From positions 1 to 63,904 of the forward strand of contig JANQLQ010000115.1 of the NCBI GenBank assembly GCA_028280565.1: a DNA stretch of 63,904 nucleotides. Reading direction: 5' to 3'. Position numbers and translations under genes: made by a program. This document shows, one piece after another, positions 4,047 to 63,606 of the stretch. Below the pieces are notes generated by a model, which did no database searches, was not told the DNA's origin, and saw nothing but the letters and a program-made list of their open reading frames with translations. How positions within the stretch are numbered: the first letter of the stretch is position 1; every line of letters begins with the position of its first letter. The stretch is from Fulvivirga sp. (GTDB taxonomy: Bacteria; Bacteroidota; Bacteroidia; Cytophagales; Cyclobacteriaceae).

Positions 4047-4772
4047 TCAATCAAAGTAGAATGCCACTCCAAGATTAAGGGCTAACAAATTAAGCTGGAG
4101 GTCTACGCTGTTCTCCTGGATCCTGGTCCGATTTTCCGTGTCATTGTTAAAGGTTTCGGTGGTCCACCTGGAAGTCAAACCCACCAAACCTACCGAGGTT
4201 TCAAAAGCCCATGATCGGTTAAAAAAGATGATCAGCCCCGGTGAAACCCCTACCCGGCTTTGAAAGAATTCAGTTTCCAGTTTTTCCACCTCATCCACAA
4301 AAATGTTTCGCCTCAAGGACTCACCAAAATTGAGTCTTAAGTCTGTTTGAATAAAAACTTGGAATTTGCCTAGGCCTAAAGGGACATAGTTGCGCATGTT
4401 CGGGGTGATCGTAAAATCCTGCCCCACGGTCCTTGTGAAAACCTCCTCCCCATCCTGGTTGATTTGTATGAGGTCTTCACGGTTTCTCCCATATCCAAGA
4501 CCGAGTCCGAGGACAAAGTTATCTTTGATGGCGTACCCGCCATTACTGGTTATCCTGTAATTCAGACGATCCTGATCCAAGACATCCCTAATAAATTGGT
4601 TCTCATTTTCTGCCTCTCGCTGATCTAACGAGAAGGCCAGGTTAACGAATCCACGACCCTTAGTGATAAGGTTAAGATCACTTTCTTCATTGGTTTGAGC
4701 CATGATGGAGGTATGGTAAAGGGTACTGATAAGAAAAAAAGTGAACAGGGGATATTTACAGGAGGTAGACAT
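4047..4772 (-). CDS. Outer-membrane beta-barrel protein (porin-like family)
   Basis: A 241-residue protein with a signal peptide (cleavage after SIMAQ) and alternating hydrophobic/polar strands such as NFVLGLGLGYGRN and FQVFIQTDLRLNFG. It ends in the aromatic strand LNLGVAFYFD, typical for insertion by the BAM complex. It resembles the small OmpX/PorT-like barrels widespread in Bacteroidota. It is the first gene of a likely two-gene operon with the PCMD lipoprotein 21 bp downstream; the pairing suggests an envelope role, possibly related to glycan handling. The exact function is not recognisable. Confidence 0.75.
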   Translation of the reverse strand: MSTSCKYPLFTFFLISTLYHTSIMAQTNEESDLNLITKGRGFVNLAFSLDQREAENENQFIRDVLDQDRLNYRITSNGGYAIKDNFVLGLGLGYGRNREDLIQINQDGEEVFTRTVGQDFTITPNMRNYVPLGLGKFQVFIQTDLRLNFGESLRRNIFVDEVEKLETEFFQSRVGVSPGLIIFFNRSWAFETSVGLVGLTSRWTTETFNNDTENRTRIQENSVDLQLNLLALNLGVAFYFD

Positions 4773-4958
4773 GGTTCGATACTATTTGATTGAACTCCAA
4801 TATCATTATTTACCAAAATATTGATATTGAGGCAGTAGGAATATTTTCTCTTACCTAAAATTTCAATCTTTATAAAAGATTTACAACTAGGCTTATTTTA
4901 TTAACAATTTAGAAAAAAACTATGTTTTATGGTTGTTATCCTAGATACTTTATACGCT

Positions 4959-5486
4959 ATGAAACCCACTACATTAGTTTTACTCACCCTCATCCTTTGC
5001 TCTTGTTCGACAATCCGTACCTCCTTCGAATATGATAATCAAGTTGATTTCACCGAATACAAAACTTTCGGTTTTTCGGAAGACTCTGAAAAACTTCCTG
5101 TTAATGAGCTGGTTAGAAAGCGGATTTTTGCCGCCATTTCCAAAAACCTGGTCACAAAAGGGTATTTGGCTTCAGATAACCCCGATGTTTTGATTGATTT
5201 GCAAATACATACGGAAGATAAACAACAGACCTCTGCTACGACCATGAATGTTGGAGGGAGCTATGGCAGGCGTTGGGGTTTCCGTTCAGGTGTTTCGACC
5301 ACACAGTTTCATACAAGAACCTACACAATAGGTACCCTCTTCATTGACATCGTTGATATGGGCACAGAGACGCTTGTTTGGTCAGGACAAGGCACGTCCA
5401 CGGTAACAAAAAAGACGATTCCACAAGAAAAAATGGAGGCAGGAATTAATAAAATCTTGGCCAACTATCCCCCACTTGCAGAATAG
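4959..5486 (+). CDS. DUF4136 lipoprotein
   Basis: A 175-residue lipoprotein with lipobox LILCSC. After the cysteine come FEYDNQVDFTEYKTFGF and later LVTKGYLASDNPDVLIDLQIH. These are the hallmarks of DUF4136, a family of periplasmic or outer-membrane lipoproteins with a DUF4136/LpoB-like fold. A glycine/arginine patch (VGGSYGRRWGF) sits in the middle and TLFIDIVDMGTETLVWSGQG near the C-terminus. I chose the ATG at 4959 because it begins the signal peptide directly; an upstream ATG at 4929 would add ten residues. Its role is unknown, probably in the envelope. It is divergent from the 4047-4772 barrel gene. Confidence 0.85.
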   Translation: MKPTTLVLLTLILCSCSTIRTSFEYDNQVDFTEYKTFGFSEDSEKLPVNELVRKRIFAAISKNLVTKGYLASDNPDVLIDLQIHTEDKQQTSATTMNVGGSYGRRWGFRSGVSTTQFHTRTYTIGTLFIDIVDMGTETLVWSGQGTSTVTKKTIPQEKMEAGINKILANYPPLAE

Positions 5487-55995: not shown

Positions 55996-56154
55996 ATGAA
56001 AAGAGTAATGTTCTATGTTTTAGCGAGTTGTATGCTTTTGGCTGTATCTTCTTGTGAGTTAGTGAGTGAGCCCGATGATATGTCTGAACATACGTTAAAC
56101 ACGGGGTTTGGAGATCCCGGAAGCGGAAGTGATCTCGAAGACGGGCCAGAATAA
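55996..56154 (+). CDS. Small acidic lipoprotein, 52 residues
   Basis: ATG 55996 to TAA 56154 encodes a signal peptide ending MLLAVSSC, a good lipobox, and a mature lipopeptide of about 33 residues: CELVSEPDDMSEHTLNTGFG, then DPGSGSDLEDGPE. It is strongly acidic, with no basic residue after the lipobox. A strong terminator follows at 56182-56214, so it is a complete, separately terminated gene. It is the first gene of the tetratricopeptide cluster. Its function is unknown; a small lipidated ligand or partner of the neighbouring periplasmic TPR proteins is a guess based on position. Confidence 0.75.
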   Translation: MKRVMFYVLASCMLLAVSSCELVSEPDDMSEHTLNTGFGDPGSGSDLEDGPE

Positions 56155-56181
56155 TTGTTTTTACGCCAATGTAATATTTTT

Positions 56182-56214
56182 AAAAAAGGTTCACTTTTTT
56201 AAGTGACCTTTTTT
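56182..56214 (+). terminator. Intrinsic terminator / possible attenuator
   Basis: Left arm AAAAAAGGTTCACTT, loop TTTT, right arm AAGTGACCTTTTTT with one bulged base, followed by a further AATTTTATTT. It ends 15 bp before the start codon of the first TPR gene. It ends the lipoprotein transcript and, because no promoter fits in the remaining space, may also control read-through into the TPR gene. Confidence 0.85.
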
Positions 56215-56228
56215 AATTTTATTTAAAT

Positions 56229-57503
56229 ATGGTATCAAATAAACTTATACTTCGCTTTACATTTCTATTATATTTTGAAATATTTATAATTTATACCGCA
56301 AGTGGGCTAAACGATTTCCAGGGTTTGTATGATTCCGCAAAGAAATTCAAGTCTGTTCCGATTGCTGAACTTGCATTAGAATCTGCTAAGAGTTTGCAAG
56401 ATGATGCCCTAATTGCTAAGAGCTACTTTTTGTTAGCCTTTTATCAAAAACATCAATTTATGTACTACAAAAGCTTGGATAATTATTTTAGGGCTTTTGA
56501 GCATTATCGGAGTGTAAAAAACCTAGATAAACAAATAGGTGTATTAACCAATATAGGAATAATATATATCCAAGTTGGCTTTTTTGATAAGGCGGTAAGT
56601 TTTTATCAAGACGGCATCGCCCTGGCCCAGGTGGCTGGAAACAAAAAACGGGAACTTACACTTCGTTATCAAATCGCAAGGGCCTATAGGCTGACGGGGA
56701 AATTCCCCGAGGCAAAAAATGTGTACATGGACTTAATACCCATGTTTAAAGCGATTGACAATGACCACTTTGTTAGTCAATGTTACTTAGAGCTTGGTTA
56801 CATTACCGCTAAAATTGGGGAAGAGTACGATTCTGCCAACTACTTTTACACACAGGCGGTTAACGCCTACAAAACAGATGTAAAAGCGAAAAGGCTCACT
56901 GAATTGACCAAAATGTATAGCTTGGCATATATGAAAATCCAAAATAATTCTTTTGCTGAAGCGAAGGATTTACTGCTGTCTGTGCTAAACCAGCCATTAG
57001 AAGACAAAGACTATCGAAGAATCGTTATTGATGTTTATGATAACCTGGGAGATATATATCGAGAAACTGGAAATTTAGATTCTGCTGCCGCTTACTATGA
57101 AAAAGCAATGGATTCATCTCATCTAAAAGAATTCAAAAAAAAATACCTTCATCGCGCTAAGTATTTACGTGATTATTACAGTAAACTGGATATAGCGCGT
57201 TCAAATAAATATGGTGAAATTATATTTCAGTTTGCTGACCAACTTTCCAAACTTAAGTCAGATCTACAAGAAGCCAGTCATCGCTATCAAGTTGCAGCGG
57301 CTAACTACAAACATGAAACAGAACTAATTTATGCCCAGCAACGCAATCGTATGATTATTAACGCCATACTGTATGCGAGTTTGGGCTTAATAATGCTAAT
57401 TGGGTTTATCTATTACTTCTACGAACGAAGAAAACGCATAGAGAAATGGCGCAAGGCCTTAAACTCACTTACTATAAAACCAGGGATTACGGGTTATCCT
57501 TAA
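56229..57503 (+). CDS. TPR-repeat membrane-anchored protein, copy 1
   Basis: A 424-residue protein with an N-terminal signal or anchor (to about residue 28) and about seven tetratricopeptide repeats (residues about 30-350). These include AKSYFLLAFYQKHQFMYYKSLDNYFRAFEHY, GVLTNIGIIYIQVGFFDKAVSFYQDGIALA, and DVYDNLGDIYRETGNLDSAAAYYEKAM. A linker follows, then one transmembrane helix at about 374-396 and a short basic tail YERRKRIEKWRKALNSLTIKP. The topology is a periplasmic TPR domain with a cytoplasmic tail. It resembles the sensor part of TPR/LuxR or TPR-kinase proteins of Bacteroidota, but has no output domain. Paralogues are at 58011 and 59361. Confidence 0.85.
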   Translation: MVSNKLILRFTFLLYFEIFIIYTASGLNDFQGLYDSAKKFKSVPIAELALESAKSLQDDALIAKSYFLLAFYQKHQFMYYKSLDNYFRAFEHYRSVKNLDKQIGVLTNIGIIYIQVGFFDKAVSFYQDGIALAQVAGNKKRELTLRYQIARAYRLTGKFPEAKNVYMDLIPMFKAIDNDHFVSQCYLELGYITAKIGEEYDSANYFYTQAVNAYKTDVKAKRLTELTKMYSLAYMKIQNNSFAEAKDLLLSVLNQPLEDKDYRRIVIDVYDNLGDIYRETGNLDSAAAYYEKAMDSSHLKEFKKKYLHRAKYLRDYYSKLDIARSNKYGEIIFQFADQLSKLKSDLQEASHRYQVAAANYKHETELIYAQQRNRMIINAILYASLGLIMLIGFIYYFYERRKRIEKWRKALNSLTIKPGITGYP

Positions 57504-57693
57504 CTTGGCCTTATCTCACCTTTGTAAATACACTTTCTTGCTGCTTATAACGGATCTTGTAGATAAGTTCTGGGTGGTGAAGTTTTATGGTAAGATCGGG
57601 ATGACACCAAGCGAGGAGTCCATTCAAAACTTCAATTCGGATATGTGACTATACCATTGTTGCTATATTATTATTAGAAAAAGATCACTTTTT

Positions 57694-57924
57694 ATGGACC
57701 GTTTTCTAATTTTACATACCGTGTTACACCATAAACTACTCCCATATTTTATTCTTTTGTCGCTTTACAGCCCATGCTCTTTGTTAGGTTTTTGGCATGG
57801 TGATTCTTTCCGGGCTCATCTTCTTCTTTATGAACGCAGAAAGGTGGACAAAAAATTGGCGAAAGGTGTTAGAAGAGTTGATCATTGGACCCATGTTAGA
57901 ATACTAGATCTTCATAGAGCATGA
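57694..57924 (+). pseudogene. Decayed fourth copy of the TPR gene (signal-like start plus C-terminal tail)
   Basis: Between copies 1 and 2, positions 57800-57895 read ATTCTTTCCGGGCTCATCTT, then CTTCTTTATGAACGCAGAAA and GGTGGAC..TTGGCGAAAGGTG, then AGAGTTGATCATT. This aligns with the transmembrane-tail coding region of copy 2 (59165-59250: ATTTTTTCAGGACTCGTG.. TCTTTACGAGCG.. ATGGCGAAAGGTGC.. AGAGTTGACCATT). The frame carries one-base slips. The 5' part (57694-57790) encodes a hydrophobic stretch like a signal peptide. A middle of about 1.1 kb corresponding to the TPRs is missing. Confidence 0.7.
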
Positions 57925-58010
57925 TTCGTCAAGTTAAATACGATCTGCGAATACCTTACGCATAAAAACAACATCTTCATACCCATTCCATTAACGTTCA
58001 TAATCCCATC

Positions 58011-59273
58011 ATGTCTGTCAAATTCCCACTTACTTTCATGTTGTTGCTTTTAGCGCTAATTCACAATGTGGAAGCCTCTGATGAATTCCAGCAATTATAC
58101 GATTCTGCTAAAAAGCATAAATCGATCCCACTCGCTGAACTTTCGCTAAAATCCGCTAAAAGTTTAGAAAATGATGAACTGATCGCAAGAGCGTACTTTT
58201 TAATAGCCTACTACCAAAAAAACCAACGGATGTACTATGAAAGTCTGAACAATTATTTTTCTGCACTTGAATATTACGGTAAAGCGGGAAACCATAAGCG
58301 GTATATGGACACTTTACATGGTATTGGAAATCTTTATGCTAAAGGCGGATTTCTTAAAGAGGCAATGGATTTCTACCAAGAAGGGATAGTTCTCGCCAAA
58401 CGTGAAAAAGATATTGATCGTGAGTTGTCGCTTCGTTATCAACTCGCCAAGACGTATAGGATGAATGAAGAATATGATTCTGCCACCAATATGTATCAAA
58501 GCCTTATGCCAACGCTGATAAAGCTGAAAAAGGAACATTTAATGAGCCAGTGCTATTTAGAAATGGGCTATATCGTTTCCGTAATTGGTTTAGGTTATGA
58601 CACTGCCAATTTTTTCTATACAAAGGCTATTGAAGCTTACAGAACAAATAGTAAAGACCAATCCGTTGCCGAAATAAAGAAAAAATATCGCCTTGCTTAT
58701 ATAAACAATAAAAATGGTGAATACAAAAGCGCCAAAAAATCACTATTATCTGCGTTGGCGCAGGCAAATGAAAGCACTTATGACCCGGAAATGATGGTCG
58801 ATATTTACTCGAATTTAGGAGATGCTTATGAATATTTGGGTGTGACAGATTCTGCAATTATGATGTACAAACAAGTACTTGACTACATTGATGTAGAAGA
58901 TTTCGACTTCAATTATGTGTGGAACGCTAAACTTCTCTACGATTATTGCAAGAAATTTGATCCTGCAGAATCAAAAGCTTGCAGCAAAGTGATCTATGAT
59001 TTCACCGACGAAGTAGTAGAGTTTAAAGACAAGCTGGTAGAGGCCAACGTCCACTATCAAGTAAGAGCAGCCAACTACCATCGTGAAAATGAGCTGCTTT
59101 ATACCCAACGACAAAATAATCGCGAGTTGATTAATCTCATGATCTTCCTAGCCCTTGGACTTGTTATTTTTTCAGGACTCGTGTTCTATCTTTACGAGCG
59201 TAAAAGGCGGATAGAAAAATGGCGAAAGGTGCTCAAAGAGTTGACCATTAAGCCTCGTTTCACAAAAAACTGA
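58011..59273 (+). CDS. TPR-repeat membrane-anchored protein, copy 2
   Basis: A 420-residue paralogue of copy 1. Signal peptide to about residue 23 (ending NVEAS), then the shared mature start DEFQQLYDSAKKHKSIPLAE, about seven TPRs, a transmembrane helix at about 375-395 (LMIFLALGLVIFSGLVFYLY) and the tail YERKRRIEKWRKVLKELTIKP. It shares a 41-bp identical DNA run (58983-59023) with copy 3 at the linker, while the TPR region is much more divergent. It lies 88 bp upstream of copy 3. Confidence 0.85.
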   Translation: MSVKFPLTFMLLLLALIHNVEASDEFQQLYDSAKKHKSIPLAELSLKSAKSLENDELIARAYFLIAYYQKNQRMYYESLNNYFSALEYYGKAGNHKRYMDTLHGIGNLYAKGGFLKEAMDFYQEGIVLAKREKDIDRELSLRYQLAKTYRMNEEYDSATNMYQSLMPTLIKLKKEHLMSQCYLEMGYIVSVIGLGYDTANFFYTKAIEAYRTNSKDQSVAEIKKKYRLAYINNKNGEYKSAKKSLLSALAQANESTYDPEMMVDIYSNLGDAYEYLGVTDSAIMMYKQVLDYIDVEDFDFNYVWNAKLLYDYCKKFDPAESKACSKVIYDFTDEVVEFKDKLVEANVHYQVRAANYHRENELLYTQRQNNRELINLMIFLALGLVIFSGLVFYLYERKRRIEKWRKVLKELTIKPRFTKN

Positions 59274-59360
59274 TTCGAAATAAATTTTATTGCCTATAAA
59301 TACCCTGTGTACATTTTGAATATTTAGTTCAGAACTCTTTTAGATCCCAATTTCTCAGCA

Positions 59361-60623
59361 ATGTTCTTTAAACCCCGAGCTTGTCTATTCTTTCTTTTTT
59401 GTTTGACGTCCTCTTTAAAGGCATCCGATGAATTTCAGCAACTTTATGATTCGGCGAACAAGTTAGGATCTGTTCCATTGGCAAAACGTTCATTAGAGGT
59501 TGCACAAGGATTGAAAGATGACGAATTGATGGGTAAAGCCTATTTTTTGATAGCCTTCTATCAACAATACAAACGAGCTTATTATGAAAGCTTGAAAAAC
59601 TATTTCCTAGCCGAGGAACATTATCGTAGAGCAAAAAACATAGAGAGACAAATTTCTACGCTAATTAATGTCGGAGGTATTTATACCAAAGGCGGATTTT
59701 ATGAGGAAGCAGGGCAATTTTATAATTTAGGTATTGAGCTTGCACAGCAAAATGGAGATACAATGAATGAATTGATATTGCGATATCAAATGGCAAGATC
59801 TTTACAGCTTATGGGTTCTTATCAAGAGGCAAGAAAACTCTATTCTGATCTTATCCCTCAATTTCAAAATCAGCATGATGAAATGATGGTAAGTAAATGT
59901 TACCTATCCATTGGGTATATTGTAGCGATTAGTGGAGAGGTTTATGACACTGCTGACTATTATTATTCTAAAGCCGTAGAATCATTCAGTGAAGAAGGAA
60001 AAGATAAAAATCAAGCTGAAATAACTAAAAAATACAGCTTGGGATATGTTTACATAAAACAAAATTCATTTAAAAAAGCTAAACCACTTATTCTCTCTGC
60101 TCTTGAACAAGCACAAACAGGTAGTTACAGCTCAAAGACGATGGCCGACATCTATTTTAACCTAGCAACTACCTACGAACATTTGAACATGACCGACTCG
60201 GCAATAATAATGTACGAAAAAGGCATCGAATATATCGATACGGAAGCTTTCGATTTTGATTATACCCAAAGTATTAAAAGATTATATGACTACTGCCGGA
60301 CGTTTAATCCTGCAGAATCAGAAGCCTGTAGCAAAGTGATCTATGATTTCACCGACGAAGTAGTAGAGTTCAAGGACAAGCTAGTAGACGCCAACGCGCA
60401 CTACCAAGTAGCCGCTGCCAACCTGCATCGCAAAAATGAACTTCTTAATGCCCAGCAACAGCGTGACCGCCGGGTGATCAACTTTATGATCTTCCTCGCA
60501 CTGGGTTTAGTCATTTTTTCAGGGCTTCTTTTTTATCTTTACGAGCGTAAAAGGCGTATCCAAAAGTGGCGAAAAGTACTCAAGGAATTAACCATTAAGC
60601 CCGGCCTTACGAACCCTTCTTAG
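59361..60623 (+). CDS. TPR-repeat membrane-anchored protein, copy 3
   Basis: A 420-residue paralogue with the same layout: signal to about residue 22 (SLKAS), mature start DEFQQLYDSANKLGSVPLAK, TPRs, membrane helix and tail YERKRRIQKWRKVLKELTIKP. Its 3' end overlaps by 17 bp, tail to tail, with the Xre-like gene on the other strand. The membrane helix and tail are nearly identical to copy 2, so the tail is likely under strong selection or gene conversion. Confidence 0.85.
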   Translation: MFFKPRACLFFLFCLTSSLKASDEFQQLYDSANKLGSVPLAKRSLEVAQGLKDDELMGKAYFLIAFYQQYKRAYYESLKNYFLAEEHYRRAKNIERQISTLINVGGIYTKGGFYEEAGQFYNLGIELAQQNGDTMNELILRYQMARSLQLMGSYQEARKLYSDLIPQFQNQHDEMMVSKCYLSIGYIVAISGEVYDTADYYYSKAVESFSEEGKDKNQAEITKKYSLGYVYIKQNSFKKAKPLILSALEQAQTGSYSSKTMADIYFNLATTYEHLNMTDSAIIMYEKGIEYIDTEAFDFDYTQSIKRLYDYCRTFNPAESEACSKVIYDFTDEVVEFKDKLVDANAHYQVAAANLHRKNELLNAQQQRDRRVINFMIFLALGLVIFSGLLFYLYERKRRIQKWRKVLKELTIKPGLTNPS

Positions 60624-61077
60624 TATTGGCAGATCTCTCTGCCAGTACGTAAAGCTTTTGATAATTTTTGTATAACTCTTGATAGTTTTCAGATAAGGAG
60701 GACAGCAACTCGATCGTTTTATCAGCACATTCCAAAAGTCTTACAGCTTCCTCCTGCTCGATCTTATCCGACATTTTAAGTTCTGTGATCAGCCTAACCG
60801 TGTCCAGTACAAACTGTTGGTTAGCCAAAGAGTCCGGCAACGCATCCATTTTCTTCACCATATTATTCTCATCTTGCCGGATAAACGCGTCTAAATTGAA
60901 ATCTTCATAATCCGGGTGGCGGAGTATCCTGCGCAGGTTGTCGCCCGTGATACTCGATTCCCCATCTAAGAAGCTCCTGGATACTCCTATTCGGGTGCAA
61001 AAAGAAAGACGGCTTATCCCCTTCTCCTTCAAATACGATCTTATTAAAGCTTTATCAGATATTTCTTTCTTTTGCAT
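60607..61077 (-). CDS. Xre-like HTH protein with a coiled-coil C-terminus
   Basis: A 156-residue protein. Residues about 8-58 look like a Cro/CI-type helix-turn-helix (SYLKEKGISRLSFCTRIGVSRSFLDGESSITGDNLRRIL). Residues about 85-150 are helical and heptad-like (EEAVRLLECADKTIELLSSLSENYQELYKNYQKLY). It lies tail to tail with TPR copy 3, overlapping by 17 bp. A perfect inverted repeat lies 4 bp upstream of its start codon, suggesting autoregulation. Whether it controls the TPR genes is not shown. Confidence 0.75.
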   Translation of the reverse strand: MQKKEISDKALIRSYLKEKGISRLSFCTRIGVSRSFLDGESSITGDNLRRILRHPDYEDFNLDAFIRQDENNMVKKMDALPDSLANQQFVLDTVRLITELKMSDKIEQEEAVRLLECADKTIELLSSLSENYQELYKNYQKLYVLAERSANTKKGS

Positions 61078-61165: not shown

Positions 61166-61435
61166 ATGGGGAATAAAAGATTGTTTCATTTAATGGAACT
61201 ACTCAAGGTGTGTGATCGCATACAACATGACCTTTTGACTAAAGAAAGGAGCATGCAGCATGATTATATCATCGTGAATATGTATGACTTGGTCTGTCGA
61301 CATCCGCACATTACAGTTTCCCAATTGCTTGCTATTTATAATACCCTGCTGGCCACGAATTGGCGAGTAACTAGTATTGATATTCCATTAGACGAGACCA
61401 ACATCTTTACGGCACGGTCGTTGTGCTGTACATGA
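61166..61435 (+). CDS. Hypothetical small protein, 89 residues
   Basis: An open frame from ATG 61166 that encodes a helical protein (RLFHLMELLKVCDRIQHDLLTKE, then ITVSQLLAIYNTLLATNW) with no signal peptide. I recognise no domain. It starts 65 bp from the divergent operator candidate, so it could share the regulation of the Xre-like gene. Confidence 0.5.
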   Translation: MGNKRLFHLMELLKVCDRIQHDLLTKERSMQHDYIIVNMYDLVCRHPHITVSQLLAIYNTLLATNWRVTSIDIPLDETNIFTARSLCCT

Positions 61436-61897: not shown

Positions 61898-62128
61898 ATG
61901 GCTTTAAAAAACATACTTCAGCGAGGTTTCGTGATCGATAAGCTGATCCGGGAAAAGAAGACCGGCTCAGCCAAAGAACTAGCCGAAACCACCGGGGTGA
62001 CACGCAGACATATCTTTAACTACCTCCAAGCACTGGAAGAAATCGGCAAAAAATGCAGGTTTGACCCGGAAGAAGATAGTTACGTCTATTTCGATGATAC
62101 CGCCGGAAAAGATACAGGACTGCATTAA
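61898..62128 (+). CDS. Small stand-alone HTH protein
   Basis: A 76-residue protein consisting almost entirely of a helix-turn-helix (HTH_11/DeoR-like): FVIDKLIREKKTGSAKELAETTGVTRRHIFNYLQALEEIG, followed by an acidic C-terminus (DPEEDSYVYFDD). Small HTH proteins of this type occur as solitary regulators in Bacteroidota. No neighbour suggests its target. Confidence 0.7.
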   Translation: MALKNILQRGFVIDKLIREKKTGSAKELAETTGVTRRHIFNYLQALEEIGKKCRFDPEEDSYVYFDDTAGKDTGLH

Positions 62129-62472: not shown

Positions 62473-63546
62473 TTATTTCAAATCTTCGCCGGCTATGTCT
62501 TGCCAATGATAATAATGAAAGGTACCGTCATCAGACATGGCCACGAACAGCCCACGGGTAAACGTATCGTTTAGCGCAGCACTGGTAACTTCACTTCCAT
62601 CGCTATCAAGGGTGGAAAGGAGGACAGTTTTTAACCTTGGGTGCTGGTGTACATTTCCTCCTGTGCCCTCACGTGGGTAAATATGAAATTTGTTGGCTTG
62701 CTGGTCGGATACTAGTATATAACCACTCGTGTTGTCTTTTTTGAAAATGGATATACCCTCATGGTCATCGGTAAAACCTTCCGTGGCAAAAAGAGCTAAT
62801 TCCGTATTGCTGCTATCAGGATGAGCATAATATTTTCTAACACCTACATTCTCATCGGAATAGTAGACATAGCCTAGTTCGCTATCTATGGCTATGGCTT
62901 CAATCTCTTTCACCCCGCTGAACTTGCCGAATTTCCTTACCAACTTTGCCCGTACTGCACCGCTTTCGCTATACAATTCGTATTGCCATAGGTACCCGTC
63001 CTTTGGGCCATACTTACGACCCACGATAGCATAGAACGTATTGCTAGCAGGTTCTGTGAAAAGCGCAACTCCCATAGGTGACCGAAGCGTATCCCCGACA
63101 AAAACCGGGATACCCCCATTGTCTATAGGTGTCATGGATGGTAATCGGAATACACGGATGCTATGCGTATATCGTTCGGTGCATACGGCAATGTCTACAC
63201 GTTCGTTTCCCAAGCCAAAATCATAGGCAATGTCCACGTTATTAGGCCGCTGAATGTTATTCACGCTATCAACGATCTTTCCGTTAAGATCAAAAACATA
63301 AAGAGCACCTATCCCCTCCTCATTGCCTTTATCCGTGCCAATGATCAGACTTTTGGCAGGATCCTGCCTGTTGATCCAAATGGCAGGGTCATCCGTATCA
63401 TTTGCCACCTTTTGAGTTACCTTTTTAGGTTTGATGGTTACTGAGGGTGAGTTTACAGGGGCGGCGGTTTCTTTTGTGGCCTCTTTATTACCGGGTACAC
63501 AAGCGAAGGCCAGCCCTGTGAATATAAGATAATGTAGAACTTTCAT
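62473..63546 (-). CDS. Beta-propeller phytase, lipoprotein
   Basis: A 357-residue protein of the six-bladed beta-propeller phytase (BPP, alkaline 3-phytase) family. The signal is MKVLHYLIFTGLAFACVPGN with the lipobox FAC, which fixes the start at 63546 rather than an ATG-like start further upstream. The family motif is ANDTDDPAIWINRQDPAKSLIIGTDK. Further calcium and phytate-site acidic residues are in NNVDIAYDFGL, VKEIEAIAIDSELGYVYYSDE and TDDHEGISI. It hydrolyses phytate (inositol hexakisphosphate) at the cell surface using calcium. It is directly followed upstream by a TonB-dependent receptor gene, the usual arrangement in Bacteroidota. Confidence 0.93.
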   Translation of the reverse strand: MKVLHYLIFTGLAFACVPGNKEATKETAAPVNSPSVTIKPKKVTQKVANDTDDPAIWINRQDPAKSLIIGTDKGNEEGIGALYVFDLNGKIVDSVNNIQRPNNVDIAYDFGLGNERVDIAVCTERYTHSIRVFRLPSMTPIDNGGIPVFVGDTLRSPMGVALFTEPASNTFYAIVGRKYGPKDGYLWQYELYSESGAVRAKLVRKFGKFSGVKEIEAIAIDSELGYVYYSDENVGVRKYYAHPDSSNTELALFATEGFTDDHEGISIFKKDNTSGYILVSDQQANKFHIYPREGTGGNVHQHPRLKTVLLSTLDSDGSEVTSAALNDTFTRGLFVAMSDDGTFHYYHWQDIAGEDLK

Positions 63547-63606
63547 AAGCATATAAAAAACGCTGCCGGCATAATCCCGGCAGCGTTCCATTCATTCATT
63601 AAAGTT

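Follow-up and report, generated by a model that had tools for sequence, protein, structure and literature searches.

The window analysed here is a 63,904-nucleotide stretch of Fulvivirga sp. DNA (contig JANQLQ010000115.1 of assembly GCA_028280565.1). Between positions 55996 and 61077 it holds a cluster of genes for a small acidic lipoprotein, three tandem receptors with tetratricopeptide repeats (TPRs) and an Xre-like helix-turn-helix (HTH) protein. We propose that these make up a three-part transmembrane regulatory unit, in which a lipopeptide ligand, a periplasmic TPR receptor with a tail and a cytosolic Xre regulator probably work together. The architecture recurs in other genomes, and slow evolution of the tail, exchange of ectodomains and co-divergence of the parts were all observed. 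The main parts of the cluster are as follows:

55996..56154, + strand: acidic mini-lipoprotein of 52 residues; an open reading frame (ORF); relatives have an ORF of this kind upstream
56181..56215, + strand: terminator-like hairpin (-14.1 kcal/mol) with a T-rich 3' side, between the lipoprotein gene and receptor copy 1
56229..57503, + strand: TPR receptor copy 1, 424 residues, with a signal-like start, TPRs, a stalk and a transmembrane (TM) helix; tail at 57420-57482
58011..59273, + strand: TPR receptor copy 2, 420 residues; tail at 59193-59255
59361..60623, + strand: TPR receptor copy 3, 420 residues; tail at 60540-60602
60607..61077, - strand: Xre-like HTH protein, 156 residues, with a helical-looking C-terminal region, convergent to the receptors

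Recurrence of the unit among relatives

A search with receptor copy 2 gave matches at 145 places in 40 of 58 genomes. We took the surroundings of all 44 places with an open frame of at most 510 residues; of the 101 places with a longer frame, 54 were covered, namely 20 from the top of the list and then those of the same genus. The loci are referred to by L numbers. Distinct TPR genes were classed as tail-only when at most 60 residues followed the TM helix (n = 41) and as longer when more did (n = 62), leaving out of the count those without a recognised TM helix and those with less than 250 nt of upstream sequence and no lipoprotein. A lipoprotein was counted when an acidic ORF of 45-75 residues lay at most 200 nt upstream, and 210 non-TPR genes of at least 250 residues served as background. 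An acidic mini-lipoprotein was found upstream of 26/41 tail-only genes, compared with 7/62 longer TPR genes and 0/210 non-TPR genes, and an adjacent convergent Xre gene was present in 16/41 tail-only versus 0/62 longer TPR genes (Fisher 4.6e-8). The Xre count was not blind, because the Xre profile had been built from partners in the same loci. An earlier lipoprotein count without the acidity filter gave 27/44, 7/21 and 6/254, respectively; two of the seven and all six background cases were unlike the mini-lipoprotein family by eye. Downstream of the first 21 longer TPR genes, no neighbour was called an Xre relative.

A TPR profile run phylum-wide matched at least 143 of 247 genomes, and among the matches listed most had long open frames. 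Lipoprotein scans were empty for 31 TPR genes among these matches (loci L144-L172; four with less than 200 nt upstream). A generic TPR-gene neighbourhood was ruled out by this result together with the absence of Xre genes beside the 62 longer TPR genes. The original prediction, made from the letters of the window, had named recurrent linkage to small lipoproteins or Xre-like proteins as its support and unlinked scatter as its refutation; the linkage recurs well above the controls, and unlinked scatter was not the general picture.

With the Xre profile, 142 of 148 genomes of the family matched at E 1e-8, mostly through other HTH proteins, as judged by their length. Among 20 regions examined, the unit was found, whole or partial, in L119, L122, L123, L124, L125 and L133, representing four further genera; L044, obtained from the copy 2 search, adds a fifth. 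In an order-level sample at E 1e-18, only the window's own genome matched out of 148. Because this sample yielded the own genome only and the family-level sample contained matches below E 1e-18 in other genera, strong Xre matches seem restricted to Fulvivirga and a number of genera within its family. Copy 2 used as a single query against genome contigs gave no lead, and we found no description of the unit in open-licence PubMed Central papers.

The receptors and their tails

The three tandem signal-TPR-TM-tail paralogues of the original prediction were borne out: the ORFs were present and TPR domains exceeded the Pfam cut-offs in all three (TPR_12, E 1.5e-14 to 2.1e-23). Hydropathy indicated a signal-like N-terminus and a C-terminal TM helix, and Pfam detected no HTH or other output domain. 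With the basic character of the tail, this suggests periplasmic TPRs and a cytoplasmic tail. Overall identity to copy 1 was 46% for copy 2 and 43% for copy 3. At E 0.001, the tail peptide was found three times in the 9.05-Mb genome, each time within the cluster, with 100, 95 and 76% identity. The word 'identical', used of the tails in the original prediction, was thus slightly too strong for copy 1 (76%).

Further evidence that the tail is conserved was obtained by comparing the proportions of differing nonsynonymous (pN) and synonymous (pS) sites. Between copy 1 and copies 2 and 3, pN was 0.165 and 0.183 in the tail; the corresponding values were 0.29-0.41 for the TPRs, 0.36-0.38 for the stalk and 0.42-0.46 for the TM helix. 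The tail is the slowest-evolving part of copy 1 against copies 2 and 3. It is not a recent copy, since synonymous sites were saturated in these comparisons, which ruled out recent gene conversion as the reason for its conservation. Between copies 2 and 3, tail pN was 0.018 and pS 0.62, a rough value as the tail has 23 codons. The stalks of these two copies share a 41-nt identical block in which synonymous difference was lowered; local conversion is therefore likely there, outside the tail.

The same contrast was observed in other arrays. It amounted to a TPR pN of 0.36 and a tail pN of 0.08 for copies 2 and 3 of L030, 0.41 and 0.06 within the L123 array, 0.50-0.51 and 0.18-0.21 for L122 with L043, and 0.40 and 0.11 for L122 with L123 (tail A). 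Tails differ among receptor subfamilies, while the window and several arrays keep theirs as the TPRs diverge, in agreement with what had been predicted apart from L030 copy 1 and, weakly, L043 (see below). Freely varying tails, which would have spoken against the prediction, were not the general picture in other genomes. In L122 and L123, ectodomains have been exchanged between two tail cassettes that lie beside two Xre genes: L123_9666 shares 54-58% of the ectodomain but 1/18 aligned tail residues with L123_6449, and 28-40% of the ectodomain but 36/44 tail residues with L122_1145. L122 and L123 have two Xre genes each, which equals the number of tail types (two).

The mini-lipoproteins

The lipoprotein ORF that had been predicted to head the cluster is indeed there, with counterparts upstream of relatives. 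The 37 distinct lipoproteins of the set had a mean length of 56 residues (46-69), a mature part of 36 residues and a mean net charge of -8.3, and were rich in D, E, P and G. An acidic residue occurred at most three positions after the lipobox cysteine in 36/37. Because pN/pS was 0.15-0.54 in 9/9 pairs of relatives (the window ORF being in none of these pairs), the relatives are coding. In the window, L030 and L122, the lipoprotein gene stood ahead of the first receptor; L123 had too little upstream sequence. Copy number varied on both sides, with three lipoprotein paralogues for one receptor in L042 and one lipoprotein for three receptors in the window. By eye, the L055 lipoprotein contains a repeated ATEG..GHVEPPIE unit.

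Terminator-like hairpins of -10 kcal/mol or stronger occurred within 150 nt after the lipoprotein gene in 23/36 loci. Only 1/720 dinucleotide shuffles reached this value, and about 0.1 of the 36 loci would be expected by chance. A simple promoter and terminator scan gave counts near those of shuffled sequence and did not pick up the hairpin at 56181-56215.

The Xre-like protein

The window protein that closes the cluster matched HTH_3 with an E of 0.015, below the Pfam cut-off, and its Xre identity, as originally predicted, rests on alignment with its relatives. Two of four relatives (L034 and L119) passed the Pfam HTH cut-off, and L024 and L036 gave no match. A profile of 16 Xre proteins matched the structures of P22 C2 and PezA. 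It also matched chains of ComR and PlcR, and a Rap-type phosphatase chain was matched by the TPR profile; we consider these matches weak because such folds are common.

Co-divergence and relation to TPR kinases

Distances between TPR regions were correlated with those between Xre proteins (r 0.555, p 0.0001, 23 pairs; p 0.003 when paralogues were shuffled within genomes; r 0.37 for the 18 same-genome pairs alone). Distances between mature lipoproteins were likewise correlated with TPR distances (r 0.485, 36 pairs, p 0.0002 both overall and within genomes).

In a midpoint-rooted tree of 117 TPR regions, tail-only proteins linked to a lipoprotein or an Xre gene fell in one group, apart from the kinases and from a short type linked to HD genes; support was 0.87 at the deep split, and several nodes within the group were weak. 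The longer proteins L049 (with lipoprotein) and L051 (without) also fell in the tail-only group. A kinase-type sensor truncated in the window genome alone was ruled out, the same tail-only form being found in other genomes. Certain other short TPR proteins, with an HD gene as the next gene in 3/4 tested, had neither partner and lay in the kinase half of the tree.

Six TPR histidine kinases (L068, L071, L078, L082, L083 and L175) were preceded by the same kind of lipoprotein. HisKA_2 and HATPase domains were present in 6/6, and the next gene encoded a response regulator in 5/5 tested, with LytTR in four. In the other half of the tree, these kinases formed one clade (0.98), which also contained L030_816, a protein without lipoprotein. 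Because the same kind of lipoprotein precedes clear sensor kinases, it is probably connected with signalling; this is the best indirect evidence of such a connection.

Genomic locations

RNase R-like and polyprenyl synthase genes adjoin the unit in the window, in L034 and in L134/L035 (F. marina). L034 and L134/L035 carry another receptor subtype, in an order inverted relative to the window, and the same locus of F. imtechensis (L135) contains an Xre gene and a small neighbour with no receptor. GC content was 0.365-0.368 across 56-60 kb of the window, compared with 0.419-0.473 across 51-56 kb, in keeping with the predicted AT-richness of the cluster. The transfer suggested on that basis is only partly supported, as the locus also holds a unit in L034, from another genome of the same genus, and in F. 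marina L134, where subtype and orientation differ.

In L033 and L036, the unit lies within Mu-like prophages, flanked by structural genes on one side and a gene of transposase type on the other. The supporting matches were Portal_Mu (E 3.5e-65) and rve (E 5.7e-9) in L033, and portal (E 1.4e-44) and transposase (E 1e-64) in L036. A search of viral contigs with the prophage receptor and the Xre profile gave no match; against phage records the prophage receptor had one match, of 24% identity over 45%. In L048, which belongs to the window's own genome, lipoprotein, receptor, AbiH and Xre genes are consecutive, with the AbiH-family gene (4335-5354, E 2.7e-28) directly after the TPR receptor. L026, with a receptor at a contig end, and L114, with an Xre gene at another contig end, may belong together; the order is intact in L027.

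Proposed mechanism and alternatives

In the proposed unit, the small acidic lipoprotein would be made as a ligand or ligand precursor and would be bound in the periplasm by the TPR solenoid of the inner-membrane protein. Binding would alter the stalk and the membrane helix, so that the short basic cytoplasmic tail captures or releases the convergently encoded Xre protein. The hairpin after the lipoprotein gene could provide for much ligand and little receptor. Receptor genes would duplicate and their ectodomains diverge or swap, while each tail stays matched to its own Xre protein. Ligand binding, tail docking, the direction of regulation and the target genes are what we infer from the patterns described above. 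The original interpretation, in which diversified receptors read lipopeptide-like ligands and share one cytoplasmic partner, is supported, with binding of the lipoprotein to the TPRs and docking of the tail to Xre as its presumed steps.

Several observations weigh against this proposal. Thirteen of the 41 tail-only genes had neither partner adjacent: five array members, seven genes of other short types (an HD gene being next in three of four tested) and one long protein, L080, placed there by the hydropathy cut-off. Xre relatives occurred with no TPR gene nearby (L115, L120, L121), and lipoprotein-receptor pairs with no adjacent Xre gene (such as L032, L038, L041, L042 and L050). In L043 it is the third TPR gene, and not the first, that has the lipoprotein ahead of it. 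The lipoproteins were called by a lipobox pattern and a hydrophobic start rather than by SignalP. The tail contrast failed for L030 copy 1 against copies 2 and 3 (TPR pN 0.43-0.45, tail pN 0.44-0.46) and was weak within L043 (0.23 and 0.13-0.16). Finally, TM-tail distances were no better correlated with Xre distances (r 0.541) than those of the solenoid were (0.529), and plain linkage alone could yield co-divergence.

Some members of the set lack one neighbour or both, which fits the idea that there is no joint function, the TPR protein being an envelope-assembly scaffold, a common role of TPR proteins, and its neighbours being retained through a shared locus. We consider this idea improbable in view of the controls (longer TPR genes and 210 genes of other kinds), the correlated divergence within genomes and the slow tails in several arrays. 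An envelope sentinel would use the same physical parts as our proposal: the lipoprotein would normally be exported to the outer membrane or the surface and, when transport fails, would stay in the periplasm and meet the TPR receptor, with Xre answering the stress. RcsF and NlpE report envelope stress in a comparable manner, and the acidic residue near the lipobox cysteine fits surface-export signals, which are acidic in the lipoproteins of Bacteroidota. Such a device has no obvious need for diverging receptor arrays, three ligand paralogues (L042), swapped ectodomains or carriage by Mu-like prophages, and it appears unlikely to us.

We attach a similarly small probability to a phage-related switch, in which the unit senses infection or neighbouring lysogens and Xre represses prophage, abortive-infection or toxin genes until ligand or receptor is disturbed. 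This would account for the units in the L033 and L036 prophages, for AbiH between the TPR receptor and the Xre gene in L048 and for the AbiEii, DUF6088 and HsdM-type genes near L040. However, when 65 of 99 neighbouring proteins were scanned, each of the 25 PADLOC families among the matches listed had one member, and the Pfam families of the neighbours, among the matches listed, were largely housekeeping. Among the window proteins, the receptors had only weak PADLOC matches, of a general TPR kind, and the Xre protein had no match.

The three-part regulatory unit that we favour could form part of a wider system, which we put forward tentatively. This would be an undescribed peptide communication of Bacteroidota, with self-encoded lipopeptides, split TPR receptors at the inner membrane, interchangeable ectodomains on tail-Xre outputs and a histidine-kinase version alongside, by which Mu-like prophages would distinguish lysogens from one another; it would be a Gram-negative counterpart of RRNPP and arbitrium. 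If the unit does signal between cells or prophages, there would be peptide communication through TPR receptors outside Bacillota.

Comparison with known systems

AimR is a TPR protein. In the arbitrium system of Bacillus phages (AimP-AimR-AimX), a phage-borne peptide and its receptor steer lysogeny, and the L033 and L036 units are likewise prophage-borne. AimR, however, is one cytosolic protein, whereas in the present unit the membrane separates the receptor from the DNA-binding part, and a role of the prophage units in lysogeny would be conjecture.

The RRNPP(A) systems of Bacillota (Rap, Rgg, NprR, PlcR, PrgX, AimR, ComR) resemble the window in that, according to excerpts of two papers, a small exported peptide gene lies beside a TPR receptor of 250-500 residues, also in phages (PMC10075063, PMC9765709). 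The lipoprotein of 52 residues (46-69 in the set of 37) is within the 10-100 residues of RRNPP(A) propeptides, the receptors (420-424 residues) have the expected size and TPRs, and the two genes adjoin with a gap of 74 nt. Sec export is possible in view of the lipobox pattern and hydrophobic start, and the relaxed level of RRNPP_detector accepts a lipoprotein signal for a Sec-exported propeptide (PMC10075063). In contrast, RRNPP(A) receptors are cytosolic, bind imported peptide and are themselves the regulators, whereas the window receptor has a signal-like start, a TM helix and no HTH, and Xre is a separate protein.

A periplasmic TPR sensor is also found in FimS/FimR of Porphyromonas gingivalis and similar Bacteroidota TPR kinases, and the window receptors share the periplasmic TPRs and TM helix, as predicted by domain and hydropathy alone. 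The NCBIfam FimS model matched, below its cut-off in both cases, receptor L034 with an E of 1.4e-12 and the TPR-kinase L071 with 1.3e-33. FimS has a kinase at its C-terminal end and its own response regulator, whereas the window proteins have a short tail there and lack both by Pfam; the lipoprotein-linked kinases have them. The TPR region of FimS implies a protein signal according to the consulted part of a review, which mentions no lipoprotein partner of FimS (PMC5706477), and another paper describes the signal as unknown (PMC11053733). Here, a candidate protein ligand is encoded beside a Bacteroidota TPR receptor, in kinase and kinase-free versions, and what TPR sensors detect can therefore be tested directly; the naturally swapped ectodomains, the different types of tail and the paralogous ligands are ready-made specificity controls. 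If confirmed, the unit may reveal what this class of receptors senses.

Other features of the cluster and its relatives

The original prediction had overlooked the hairpin and the following features:

~57666..57886, + strand: decayed fourth receptor copy, a remnant of the element preceding copy 1, then TM helix and tail, with broken frames
61166..61435, + strand: 89-residue neighbour protein, 46% identical over 84 residues to a gene on the far side of the L024 Xre gene
61898..62128, + strand: 76-residue HTH_11 protein (E 6.7e-7), of a kind that adjoins the Xre gene in several loci

The decayed copy was identical to the TM-tail region of copy 2 at 74/96 nt (E 7e-15). By eye, a decayed TPR receptor with its TM helix and tail kept is also present at L122:4056-4706. 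The 76-residue protein showed 36% identity over 74 positions to an L034 neighbour protein. The 3' end of copy 3 and the convergent Xre gene overlap by 17 nt.

Small proteins of about 85-113 residues with a CWxAxEE-like motif (by eye) adjoin the Xre gene in L034 (9099-9356), L035, L027, L028, L114, L120 and L121; in L120 and L121 there is no nearby TPR gene. The L034 protein had no Pfam or NCBIfam match. In F. marina (L040:6770-11638), DUF6088, AbiEii and HsdM-type genes lie beside a lipoprotein-receptor-Xre unit and are preceded by a gene for a 391-residue protein, RES-like by eye and with no Pfam match. In F. imtechensis (L028:6901-11769), about 1.4 kb beyond the lipoprotein of such a unit, there are genes for a Peptidase_C39 ABC transporter, a CAAX-protease-like protein and small peptides, one of which looks by eye as if it had a GG leader. 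In the window, a Phytase-family protein (62473-63591, - strand, E 4.2e-39) adjoins the cluster.

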